DNA from: Archangium sp.
Lineage (GTDB): Bacteria; Myxococcota; Myxococcia; Myxococcales; Myxococcaceae
Assembly: GCA_030695565.1 (NCBI GenBank)
Contig: JAUYRZ010000067.1
Coordinates: 1-64,000 of the forward strand
Direction of reading: 5' to 3'
DNA length: 64,000 nt
The translations under genes and the position numbers were made by a program. How positions within the stretch are numbered: the first letter of the stretch is position 1; the number at the start of each line of letters is the position of its first letter. The notes under the pieces are model-generated. The model did not search any database. It saw only the letters and a list, made by a program, of their open reading frames with translations, and was not told the DNA's origin. This document shows positions 56,312-61,658 of the stretch, piece after piece.

Positions 56312-58024
56312 TTATTTGACTCGCTTGAGCGTGCGAATCGCTTCGCCTGCTTCGTCCTGACCGCAGTTCTTCTCGTCCTTCGGCGTCTCCGAGAGCTCGC
56401 GCAGCGCCGGGATGATCTCTGCATCACCGAGTTCGCCCAACCGCACCGCCGCGCGCGCACGCACGCTGCACTCTGCCGACTGCAGTGAAGCCGCGTACCG
56501 CTCGGGCAACGAGAGCCCCTTGGTGCGCCCCGCGCCGTCGAGATACCGCAAGGCGCCCCACTGCCGCGCCGACGGGCCCTCCTTCGCGAACTGCCTGAGC
56601 ACCTCGTCAGAGAGCAACGGTGGCAACATCGAGAGCCACTCCACGACCTCGGGATCCGTCTCAGAGGCGGCGTACCCCTCGACCAACATCTCCAGCACCG
56701 CGGGCCGCGCTGGAAACAACGTCTGATACGGCGACTGCCGAATCATCGCGCGCGCATCGTCTTCCCTGCCCAGCTCGTGCAGCGCGCCCACTTTCACCGA
56801 GAGCAACACCGGGTACAGGCCCTTCGAGTCGGCCAGCACCGCGTCGATGGTGGTGAGCGCCTCGGCCGGTTTGCCTTCACGCAGCTCGGTCTCCGCGCGC
56901 TCGACGGTGGAGGGCGGAAACATCGCCCACGCCGCCGGCACCAGCAGCGTGAGCCCCGCCGTCACTGCCAGGCTCTGCTTGAACTGCTTGTCGAGCCGGC
57001 GCGCGAAGCGGCCCACCGTCTTCACGCCCTGCATGCCGCGCTGGCTGAAGCTGGTCGCGGTGTCTTTCACCGCGCTCAACGTCTGCGTGGTGACCGCGCT
57101 CAGCACGAGCCGCGTCTGCGTCGACAACGCCAGCTGATCAGCCGGCAACACACTGCGCAGCGCCTGCACCAGTGCCGCGCCGTCCTTCGGCCGGTTGACC
57201 GCCTTCTTTTCCAGGCACGACATGACCAACTTCACCAACAGCGGGAAGGGGCCCACGTGCGGCGCGACGGCATCGAGCGGCGGGGGGAGCTCGCGCACGT
57301 GCTGCTCGAGGTAATCGCGCGCTTCCGGGCCCTCGAACGGCAACCGGCCGGCGAGCATGCGGAAGGCGACCACTCCGAAGGCGTAGACGTCGGTGCGGGG
57401 ATCGACCGGCTGCGCCATCGCCTGCTCGGGCGCCACGTACGCGGGCGTGCCGATCGCCTGGCCAGGCAAGCTCATGAAGGGGTCGACGCCGGGTGGCAGC
57501 TCGGGGTGGGCAGGGCCGCTGTCGGTGTCGAGCTCCATCAGGCGCGCGATGCCGAAGTCGAGCAGGCGGGCTTGTTCTCCACGCGGCCCGGGGCCGATGA
57601 CGATGTTCTGCGGCTTCAGGTCGCGGTGAATGATGCCGCGCTCGTGCACCGCGGCGAGCCCCTCGGCCAGCTGCAGCAGCACGCGGATGGCGCGCCTGGG
57701 TTCGAAGGGGCCCAGGCGCAGCGCCTTCTCCAACGTCTCGCCTTCGGCCAGCTCGAGCACCAGCACCGTGCCGTCGCGTTTGTTGGTCTCGAAGTCGATG
57801 ACCCGCACCACCGAGGGGTGATCGACGGTGGACAGCAGCTGCGCCTCGCGACGGAAACGCTCGCCCATCGCCGGCTGTGCGGAGAGATCGCGCTTGAGCA
57901 CCTTGAGCGCGACCTGACGGCCCAGCGAGACCTGCTCGGCGAGGAAGACTTCGGCCATGCCGCCACCGCCCAGGTGACGGATGAGCTTGAAGCGGCCTCC
58001 GAGGACGAGCCGATCCTTCGACAC
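56312..58024 (-). CDS. Hanks-type Ser/Thr kinase with TM segment and helical C-domain
   Basis: 570 residues. Kinase domain (about 10-285): LGGGGMAEVFLAEQ, ALKVL (Lys), IIHRDLKPQNIVIG, LLDFGIARLM. A juxtamembrane part precedes one membrane helix (about 355-375: TAGLTLLVPAAWAMF). The exterior portion has TPR/HEAT-like helices ending in RAAVRLGELGDAEIIPALRE and GEAIRTLKRVK, so a protein-binding sensor is likely. GTG start at 58024. Not in an evident operon with its targets. Confidence 0.92.
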   Translation of the reverse strand: MSKDRLVLGGRFKLIRHLGGGGMAEVFLAEQVSLGRQVALKVLKRDLSAQPAMGERFRREAQLLSTVDHPSVVRVIDFETNKRDGTVLVLELAEGETLEKALRLGPFEPRRAIRVLLQLAEGLAAVHERGIIHRDLKPQNIVIGPGPRGEQARLLDFGIARLMELDTDSGPAHPELPPGVDPFMSLPGQAIGTPAYVAPEQAMAQPVDPRTDVYAFGVVAFRMLAGRLPFEGPEARDYLEQHVRELPPPLDAVAPHVGPFPLLVKLVMSCLEKKAVNRPKDGAALVQALRSVLPADQLALSTQTRLVLSAVTTQTLSAVKDTATSFSQRGMQGVKTVGRFARRLDKQFKQSLAVTAGLTLLVPAAWAMFPPSTVERAETELREGKPAEALTTIDAVLADSKGLYPVLLSVKVGALHELGREDDARAMIRQSPYQTLFPARPAVLEMLVEGYAASETDPEVVEWLSMLPPLLSDEVLRQFAKEGPSARQWGALRYLDGAGRTKGLSLPERYAASLQSAECSVRARAAVRLGELGDAEIIPALRELSETPKDEKNCGQDEAGEAIRTLKRVK

Positions 58025-58055: not shown

Positions 58056-58850
58056 CTACTGACTGAAAGCCGCTGCGAGCTCGGCCAGCTTGTCGGTGTT
58101 CACGAAGTCGGCGTGCGCCGCCTTCGCCTCCGACCAGTACGAGGTCGTGTCGGGGTTGGCGAAGAGGCGAATCGGCCGCCCCGTGGCGTGCGCCCCGTTG
58201 ATCAGGTTCTCCAGCTGCCGGCGCTGCGTCGCGGGGATCGCACCGGCGCCGTCCCACTGCATGAAGGCGTAGTAGTTCACCGCGTAGAAGCCCCACTTCC
58301 CGTCGGCCGGCGGATCGTTCACGGAGAAGCTGTTGCTGTCGCGGATGTACGGCCGTGGCGCAGGAAGATCGACCAACGCGCGTTTGCCGGCGTCGTCACC
58401 GGTGAGGACCACGGTCACCGCGCCCGCTCGGGATTGGCCTGCGTCATCGAAGCGCGTGAGGAAGGCGTAGTCGGCGAGCTGGGCGGCGAGGGTGGACTGC
58501 AAGGCGGCGCTGCCGTTCTTGAGATCGAGCCAGAGGAAGAAGGGCTTGCCGTCTCCGTGCACGCTGCCGTTGTTGGCGGCCAGGCGCGCGGCGAGCGGTT
58601 CGAGGTAGAGCGACTTGAGCGAGCCCTTGTACGGCGCGCCGCCGTGCGAGACGCCGAGGTCCGTGCCATCGAGCCAGAGGTCGGCTTCCACGCTCTCGAA
58701 CTTCGCGTCGAGCGCGTCGAGCAGCGGGCGGGTGTGCTCGTAGTCGTTGTGCGCGTGCTTGAAGGTCGGGTTGAACGTCGGGCCCACGTCGATCTGAGGG
58801 AGGACCGGGGGGCAGGCGGACAGGAGCAGCGCGAGACAGAGACGACTCAT
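58056..58850 (-). CDS. GDPD/PI-PLC-superfamily lipoprotein
   Basis: 264 residues. Lipobox LLLSAC (Cys 13). The catalytic region has HAHNDYEHTRPLLDALDAKF, ESVEADLWL and VSHGG, as in glycerophosphodiesterase/PI-PLC folds. The 'HAHNDYEH' layout is that of the AIM6-like branch. A Ca/Mg-dependent phosphodiester role is plausible, but some branch members lack activity. Lipoprotein placement suggests a periplasmic or surface location. Starts 32 bases before the kinase gene's end and runs in the same direction. Confidence 0.85.
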   Translation of the reverse strand: MSRLCLALLLSACPPVLPQIDVGPTFNPTFKHAHNDYEHTRPLLDALDAKFESVEADLWLDGTDLGVSHGGAPYKGSLKSLYLEPLAARLAANNGSVHGDGKPFFLWLDLKNGSAALQSTLAAQLADYAFLTRFDDAGQSRAGAVTVVLTGDDAGKRALVDLPAPRPYIRDSNSFSVNDPPADGKWGFYAVNYYAFMQWDGAGAIPATQRRQLENLINGAHATGRPIRLFANPDTTSYWSEAKAAHADFVNTDKLAELAAAFSQ

Positions 58851-58903: not shown

Positions 58904-60340
58904 TCATGCGGCTCTGGGGTGCGCCACTCTCGAGAGTTGCTCTTCGAACCAGGCCCGATCGCGCGCGTTCGCCAGCGCGACTTCGGCGTCGATCTCGCCT
59001 CGCACGAACAGCTGCATCAAGGACTGATCAGCGGTGCGCGTGAACGATTCGCCCAGCGGGCCCAGGGTGCGATCACGCACCAGCGCCTTCACTGCCTCGG
59101 TGCCCGGGAGCAGCTCCCAACACAGGCTGCGGCCGCCGGTGCGATTGGGCACCAGGCTCTGGCCGAACACCCCGCGCAACATCGACGACAACGAGGTCGA
59201 ACCCATCGGCGTGAGGTCGACCAGCTTCTGCACCGCCGCCGCTGCCGTCTTCGAATGCACCACGCCCAACACCAGCCGGCCGCGATCTGCGAGCGCGAGG
59301 GATGCCGCCAGGGTGGCCGCGTCGTCGAGCTGGCCGACCACCACCAGATCCGCATCACCCCGGCGCGCATCATCCAACGCGGCCGCGAACGACGGCGCGT
59401 GCACGCCGATCTCCAGTTGCTGCACCAGGCCCTTCTTCGACTCGAGCACGTAGTCGATGGGGCTCTCCAACATGCAGACGTCGACCGGCCGGCTGTCGAG
59501 CGCGCTCTGCACCAGCGCCGCCACCGTGGTCGAAGTGCCCTGCCCAGCGCCGCCCGCCACCACCCACAGCCCACTGCCCCGCAGCACGTGAGCGAACTCG
59601 TCGGGCACGCCCAGCCCCGCAGGCGAAGGCACCTGCCGCGGCAGCGCGCGCACCACCACGCTCAACCCATCGCGCCCCTGCTGGCCCCGCACGTAGAACA
59701 CCGCGTCCTTCGAGACGTGGCTGAACTCGAAGTGGGTCTGCTTGCCGAGCGTCTCGCGCATCGACTGGGGCGCGAGCCCGTTCATCGCCTCACGAAGATC
59801 GTGAGCACTGAACGGCCCGAGATCCTCCAGGCAGTGCAGGCGGCCTTCGACGCGCACGAAGGCGCGCTTGTCTTCAGCGAGGTGCAGATGGCTGGCGTGC
59901 TTCTCGGCGAGCTGCGCGATGACCGCCATCAAGGTGGTGCGCGGCGCTTCGACCACGGGCGCGGGCGGAGGCGGAGACGCGGCCACGATGGAGTCCGACG
60001 AGAGGCCCTTGCTGGAGAAGATCAGCTCTTCACCACCGGCGGCCAGCTTCACCCGGGCGCGGAGATCTTCGCCCTTCATCTCCATGTGCGCCGAGAGCGT
60101 GCCTTGCGCGGTCTCGAACACGAAGTCGATGGGCTTGCCGGCGAGGAAGTCGGGCGTGCGATCGCGCGGAACGGTGTCTGCGAAGAGCAGGAGAATCTGC
60201 CCGGAGCGCAGTGTCTGCTTGAACACCGGCGTCGTGGCGCCATTCGCGTCGACGTAGAAGCCCGGGCTCTCCGAGTCCAATCGGAGCGTCGTTCCAGGGT
60301 GGGTGAAGAGGTACTCGGTGAGGCGATCGAGTCGAGCCAT
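58904..60340 (-). CDS. PilT/GspE-family protein with degenerate ATPase motifs
   Basis: 478 residues. An N-terminal domain of about 120 residues (beta-rich, PilZ- or C39-like in look) is followed by a PilT-like core. In the core each catalytic motif is altered: the Walker A reads GGAGQGTSTT (Thr for Lys, about 262-271), the Asp box reads ESPID where PilT has EDPIE, and the Walker B reads VVVGQLDD where PilT has VGELRD (Gln for the catalytic Glu). The His box reads LVLGVVHS. The flanks (SKKGLVQQLEIGVH, MLRGVFGQSLV) are otherwise PilT-like. I chose the ATG at 60340; a GTG at 60442 is also open. A non-hydrolysing partner or regulator of the type IV pilus or secretion motors is likely. Confidence 0.85.
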   Translation of the reverse strand: MARLDRLTEYLFTHPGTTLRLDSESPGFYVDANGATTPVFKQTLRSGQILLLFADTVPRDRTPDFLAGKPIDFVFETAQGTLSAHMEMKGEDLRARVKLAAGGEELIFSSKGLSSDSIVAASPPPPAPVVEAPRTTLMAVIAQLAEKHASHLHLAEDKRAFVRVEGRLHCLEDLGPFSAHDLREAMNGLAPQSMRETLGKQTHFEFSHVSKDAVFYVRGQQGRDGLSVVVRALPRQVPSPAGLGVPDEFAHVLRGSGLWVVAGGAGQGTSTTVAALVQSALDSRPVDVCMLESPIDYVLESKKGLVQQLEIGVHAPSFAAALDDARRGDADLVVVGQLDDAATLAASLALADRGRLVLGVVHSKTAAAAVQKLVDLTPMGSTSLSSMLRGVFGQSLVPNRTGGRSLCWELLPGTEAVKALVRDRTLGPLGESFTRTADQSLMQLFVRGEIDAEVALANARDRAWFEEQLSRVAHPRAA

Positions 60341-60416: not shown

Positions 60417-61658
60417 TCAGGGGCTGCCGGGTGCGTTGCCACCCGGCAATTCCGGCGCGGTGGCTCTCGGCGCAGGTGGCTGAATCATCTCGGCGGGGAC
60501 GAAGGCGACGATGCGCGCGCGGCGATCGAGCCCGATTTTGCGCCGGGCCTCGAGCGACTTGCGCTCCTTCTTCGAGCTCGCGTCGGTGCGGCCGGCGAGT
60601 TCGACCAGGCGCTCTTCGATGGCCGCCAATTCTTCATCGAGGAGCAAGGCCTGCACGTTGCGCAGCTTGCCCTTGCCCAGGGTGTTCTCGGTCGCGACCG
60701 GAATGGCCCGCACGGTCTCCAGGCGCACCGGGCTCTCGGGGGTCTCGCGGGTCAGCTCGAGCTCCACCAGCAGGCCGTCACGCTTGGTGCCGTTGGGCTT
60801 GTCGAAGTCTTGATTCGAGACGAGGTTACCGAGCGAGAAGACCACCAGCCCGCGGCCGCCCTGGCTGCGTTCGAGATACTCGATGGGCTGCAGCACGTGC
60901 GGGTGATGGCCGATCACCGCGAAGGCACCTGCGTCGATCATCTGCTGGGCGAGCTTCCGATCTTCCGGCGCAGGCGCGAACTTGTACTCGGCGCCCCAGT
61001 GAATGAAGACGATCAACGCGTCGACCTCGGCGGCCCGCTCGCGAATGGTGGCCAGGAAGGTGTCGATGCTGCGGCCTCCGATGATGGGCTCGATCAGGTA
61101 CGGCACCGAGGGCACGTGCGGGAGCGTCTCGTCTTTCTTGTTGTTGAACCCGTTGAGCCAGCGCGTCACCGCCAGAATGCCCACCCGCATGCCGCTCTTC
61201 TCGACCACCAGGGGCGCCCACGCGGTCTCGGCGTTCGCCCCTGCGCCCGCGGTGAGCAGCCCGGCCTCTTCGAGATACGAGCGAGTGGAGGTGATGCCTT
61301 CTTGATGCTGATCGAGGCAGTGGTTGTTCGCGAAGGTGGCGATGTCGACGCCCACGCGCTTGAGCGCTCCGAGCAAAGCGGGCCGCGCGTTGAAGACCAT
61401 CTCACCGCGCTCGGGCTTCTTGAGCACCACGATGGGCGTCTCGAGGTTGACCACCGCGAAGTCGGCGCGCTGCAGCGCGGGCGCGAGCGGGCCCAGCACG
61501 TGATCCCAGCCTTCGTTGTTGGCGTCGTCGCCCTCGCGGGCGTGCATGGTGGCCACGTACTTCACGGGGTCATGCGGGATGACGTCGCCGCCGAAGACGA
61601 AGGTGACCCGCGCGGGCGCAGCCTGGGCGAGCAAGGTGAAGACGAGCGTGGTGAGCAA
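60417..61658 (-). CDS. CapA-family (metallophosphoesterase-like) protein
   Basis: 413 residues. FVFGGDVIPHD, VVNLETPIV, ATFANNHCLDQH and IGHHPHVLQPIEYL are the CapA/YwtB signatures, a calcineurin-fold family linked to poly-gamma-glutamate surface polymers but also found elsewhere. A short hydrophobic signal (LTTLVFTLLAQAAPA) suggests export. TTG start at 61658. Lysine/Arg-rich tail (SSKKERKSLEARRKIGLDRR) at about 365-385. It ends 76 bases before the PilT-like start and could be co-transcribed with it. Confidence 0.87.
   Translation of the reverse strand: MLTTLVFTLLAQAAPARVTFVFGGDVIPHDPVKYVATMHAREGDDANNEGWDHVLGPLAPALQRADFAVVNLETPIVVLKKPERGEMVFNARPALLGALKRVGVDIATFANNHCLDQHQEGITSTRSYLEEAGLLTAGAGANAETAWAPLVVEKSGMRVGILAVTRWLNGFNNKKDETLPHVPSVPYLIEPIIGGRSIDTFLATIRERAAEVDALIVFIHWGAEYKFAPAPEDRKLAQQMIDAGAFAVIGHHPHVLQPIEYLERSQGGRGLVVFSLGNLVSNQDFDKPNGTKRDGLLVELELTRETPESPVRLETVRAIPVATENTLGKGKLRNVQALLLDEELAAIEERLVELAGRTDASSKKERKSLEARRKIGLDRRARIVAFVPAEMIQPPAPRATAPELPGGNAPGSP

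Follow-up and report, generated by a model that had tools for sequence, protein, structure and literature searches.

The gene and its product

A gene for a PilT-like protein of 478 amino acids (MARLDRLTEYLF...HPRAA) occupies positions 58904 to 60340, on the minus strand, of the window, by which is meant the whole 64,000-nucleotide stretch of DNA analysed. A CapA-family gene (PGA_cap, PF09587; 60417 to 61658, minus strand) lies immediately upstream, separated from the ATG by 76 bp, and its product has, by eye, a signal-peptide-like start. The gene is followed on the same strand by one for a small protein that by eye resembles phosphodiesterases (58056 to 58850; HAHNDYEHTRPLLDAL; no Pfam match at E 0.01) and by one for a Ser/Thr protein kinase with a TPR/HEAT-like C-terminal tail (56312 to 58024). 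The ATG at 60340, given as the gene boundary in an earlier note on this DNA, is probably the true start, as the conserved N-terminus MARLDxL (here MARLDRL) is the point at which homology begins in all orthologues. Initiation at a GTG at 60442, which would give a longer open reading frame, is unlikely, since the added N-terminal stretch is unconserved and shares its DNA with the 3' end of the CapA gene.

PilT is the hexameric motor of pilus retraction in bacteria. The likeness of the window protein to PilT is far above chance. It matches the Pfam T2SSE family (PF00437) at 55.6 bits against a gathering cutoff of 24.9, as do nine of nine orthologues, and its closest sequence matches of known structure include PilT of Aquifex (PDB 2ewv, E 4.9e-43). 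The NCBIfam PilT/PilU model TIGR01420 is matched across its full profile with an E value of 4.7e-56, at a score of 190.5 bits that falls below the curated cutoff of 319.1 bits.

From its N-terminus, the protein comprises an N-domain, a disordered linker, a second N-domain and a RecA-like domain. Residues 1–102 (60035 to 60340, minus strand) form an extra copy of the PAS-like N-domain of PilT, predicted with a pLDDT of 92 and a TM score of about 0.8 to the N-domain of PilT4. This domain was folded and searched separately, the fold search with the whole model covering residues 129–470. A Pro/Ala-rich linker (residues 103–134; 59939 to 60034, minus strand) is predicted to be disordered, with pLDDT below 50 at residues 102–133. 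The PilT core, comprising the second N-domain and the RecA-like C-domain, spans residues 135–472 (58925 to 59938, minus strand). In a structure predicted from nine orthologues (pLDDT 82.8), residues 136–472 adopt the two-domain PilT fold, with a Z score of 36.5 and an rmsd of 2.7 Å over 336 residues to PilT4 (6ojy), in agreement with the claim of the earlier note that the fold is retained. The same note had aligned the core with PilT by eye along its length; the part that aligns is only residues 135–472 or so, and the N-terminal domain had gone unmentioned. Relative to the PilT retraction ATPases of A. aeolicus (2ewv) and G. metallireducens (PilT4, 6ojy), the core fold, the order of the motifs, the histidine of the His box and the C-terminal helices are shared, whereas the lysine of Walker A, the aspartate of the Asp box and the glutamate of Walker B are missing.

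Catalytic motifs and orthologues

The motif strings previously quoted for this protein (GGAGQGTSTT, ESPID, GQLDD and LVLGVVHS) are all present on the minus strand. At the Walker A position (GGAGQGTST, 59528 to 59554, within residues 263–272) the canonical GxxxxGK[ST] is not matched, threonine standing in place of lysine. The Asp box reads ESPID (59453 to 59467), with serine for aspartate, and the Walker B position DLVVVGQLDD (59321 to 59350) departs from the atypical Walker B with catalytic glutamate (GE[LM]RD) by Glu to Gln and Arg to Asp. The His box, LGVVHSKT (59246 to 59269), retains its histidine. The description of every ATPase motif as altered was thus only partly borne out: the catalytic residues just named are replaced, but the P-loop glycines, Glu292, Asp331 and His362 are kept.

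Orthologues were found in eleven genomes, four in one genus, one in a second and six in a third, all belonging to a single family of Myxococcota. No further orthologue was detected among 195 genomes of Myxococcota, and in a scan of 84,980 species only nine loci were hit, all of them in MAGs labelled as myxobacteria. In one genome (G118) the gene is split between contig ends and the P-loop is unreadable; motif counts therefore refer to the remaining ten. These ten form one clade with support of 100/100, which establishes a single origin. The Walker A lysine is absent from all ten (five Thr, five Val) and the three glycines are kept throughout. The Asp-box aspartate is Ser or Ala in 10/10, with Glu292 and Pro294 unchanged; the Walker B arginine is Asp in 10/10, with Asp331 unchanged; and His362 is invariant. 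The Walker B glutamate position is occupied by Gln (4), Glu (4), Ser (1) or Arg (1). All ten also carry Asp169 to His and Arg328 to Leu, while the N-domain arginines R223 (9/10) and R231 (10/10) are retained. In total, 52 of 121 residues invariant in canonical proteins are lost in all members of the clade. The residues that replace the catalytic ones are themselves constrained, as seen in the Thr or Val at the lysine position and the universal Asp in Walker B. Loss of the lysine is universal but loss of the glutamate is lineage-specific; the simplest reading of the alignment is that loss of the lysine preceded the splitting of the clade, the glutamate disappearing later in some lineages.

The gene is under purifying selection. 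Between the window gene and its nearest orthologue dN/dS is about 0.20 by the NG86 method, an estimate in which dS may be too low at high GC3, in which case the true ratio would be lower still; dN is 0.12, comparable to that of the neighbouring CapA gene (0.15). The clade nevertheless evolves faster than its canonical relatives, with a mean core identity of 54% against 73% in the canonical family.

Relation to canonical tandem-N PilT proteins

A PilT family with a duplicated N-domain, long Pro/Ala linkers and intact motifs, to which no name has been given, is widespread in Myxococcota (alignment A3; for example L013:1504-3042, L008:1324-2841 and L009:1543-3045). The window protein shares with these tandem-N proteins the architecture and an N-domain duplication starting MARLD, its N-terminal domain matching theirs at 99.5% in an hhalign profile comparison. 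It differs in its motifs, all four of which are canonical in the members read, and the core identity between the two is approximately 30%. At two loci inspected, the canonical genes did not lie beside CapA.

In a tree rooted with PilB-type ATPases, the degenerate clade grouped with the tandem-N PilTs with support of 94/81. The degenerate gene derives from this catalytically intact family, although a long stem, of 2.5 changes per site, makes its exact placement uncertain. The genomes bearing the degenerate gene that were searched (an 18-genome search and the A1 family scan) yielded no canonical tandem-N PilT, and the best hits that were read lacked the MARLD N-domain. This pattern suggests that the degenerate form may have replaced the canonical one in the genomes that carry it.

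Two other unusual PilT arrangements were observed. Locus L018 (genome G019, contig C4) encodes a PilT-like pair, one member of which has Arg for Lys in Walker A (GPKGSGRST) and an altered Walker B (VHVGELCT), and is possibly a second degenerate PilT. Elsewhere (L100:5397-7229 and L102:2-1564) a cyclic-nucleotide-binding-like domain, an N-domain that by eye is of GspE/MshE type and a PilT with intact motifs are fused.

Possible roles and alternatives

The branch to which the window protein belongs is genuine and conserved, a non-canonical part of a known motor family; a role in motor regulation specifically is put forward as a hypothesis. We consider there to be about an even chance that it is a conserved pseudo-ATPase that forms rings, is unable to hydrolyse ATP and serves as a non-motor partner of an active PilT-type motor. 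Judged from its motifs, such a protein would not hydrolyse ATP and would have little or no affinity for nucleotide. It would assemble as a PilT-like ring or pack against one, and would bias or report the state of one of the intact PilT-type ATPases of the cell rather than pull pili itself. Possible partners are encoded in the same genome, which has six intact PilT-family genes scoring over the cutoff in addition to PilB-type ATPases. With 52 of the invariant residues lost and a core so divergent from canonical relatives, however, the hexamer interfaces may not survive. The faster evolution of the clade and its absence from one congener, which shows it to be dispensable, also weigh against this reading.

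The role of a pseudo-ATPase in pilus or secretion motors had been called one not known to be described. Precedents do exist among engineered proteins: ATPase-dead PilT (K136A, with PilU) supports PilU-driven retraction in Vibrio (PMC6762196, PMC9815625), and a Walker A mutant of PilB without ATPase activity still supports exopolysaccharide in Myxococcus xanthus (PMC5544727). These make a dead PilT ring plausible as a modulator or signalling partner. The Vibrio case is alike in that a PilT-family protein works without its own ATPase, but the inactive PilT in that case was made by an engineered point mutation, and PilU is catalytically intact. The M. xanthus case is alike by analogy, a dead motor here standing beside a capsule-type gene, but it concerns an engineered mutant of PilB, from another subfamily. 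For a naturally ATPase-dead PilT family no report was found in the literature searched, which is weak evidence of absence.

CapA is the sole invariant neighbour, preceding the gene in 11/11 genomes of three genera. The wider neighbourhoods, including the downstream genes, differ between the genera: the kinase is a neighbour in genus g1, a CBS/cystathionine synthase gene occurs in genus g5, and the phosphodiesterase-like gene is a neighbour in g1 only. The gene is not located in a pilus cluster, a further point against the motor-partner reading. A function in anti-phage defence was rejected, PADLOC returning no match for the PilT-like protein or CapA and only generic kinase matches adjoining. 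The linkage to CapA suggests that the output of the proposed partner protein may bear on surface polysaccharide. It also underlies the main rival reading, that the pseudo-ATPase has left the pilus altogether and takes part in the homeostasis of polysaccharide or of the envelope, as a cytoplasmic scaffold or sensor alongside the CapA-type envelope protein. We regard this as doubtful though credible. CapA is common in genomes without the degenerate gene and thus can do without it; CapA seems to be an exported protein and the PilT-like one cytoplasmic, making direct contact unlikely; and the co-linearity may be plain synteny.

That the protein still binds ATP, and perhaps hydrolyses it slowly by way of a substitute for the Walker A lysine, seems improbable. 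The invariant glycine triad, Asp-box Glu, Asp331 and His-box His, together with the Walker B Glu in 4/10, speak for such an activity. Against these stand the replacement of the lysine by Thr or Val, of the Asp-box aspartate and of the Walker B arginine; no substitute lysine was identified, and an engineered PilT with Lys changed to Ala is ATPase-defective (PMC9815625).

Still less probable is a non-functional gene in the course of being lost, with canonical orthologues elsewhere. Its rapid evolution and patchy presence would fit such a course, as would the state of a genome of the same genus (G002) in which the CapA, phosphodiesterase-like and kinase genes follow one another directly, the stop of CapA overlapping the start of the gene after it; the PilT-like gene is thus cleanly missing there and hence dispensable. 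All ten readable orthologues, however, have frames that stay open along the whole gene or most of it, with GC3 of 0.86–0.96 and the low dN/dS already given, and share their substitutions down to 41% identity. The earlier view that the gene is full length and not decaying is upheld, and the possibility raised with it, of a recent mutant among canonical orthologues, fails on these common substitutions; the idea of a pseudogene is largely refuted by purifying selection across the clade. Errors of assembly or binning are refuted as the source of the gene, as is a frameshift in a canonical PilT, for although several of the genomes are MAGs, the same substitutions recur in genomes that different projects assembled independently, free of frameshifts.

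A more far-reaching form of the partner hypothesis, which we hold only tentatively and think rather unlikely in its entirety, is that this is the first naturally ATPase-dead branch of PilT: a dedicated pseudo-ATPase that arose from a tandem-N PilT, apparently in its stead, is co-transcribed with a CapA-type gene and couples the state of the pilus motor to surface polysaccharide. Pilus motor ATPases are usually recognised by their catalytic motifs. The analysis also exposes the tandem-N PilT family across Myxococcota. A conserved branch without the catalytic motifs would show that the PilT ring is put to use apart from ATP hydrolysis, as the engineered mutants of Vibrio and Myxococcus suggest, and would offer a natural system in which such hydrolysis-independent use could be tested.
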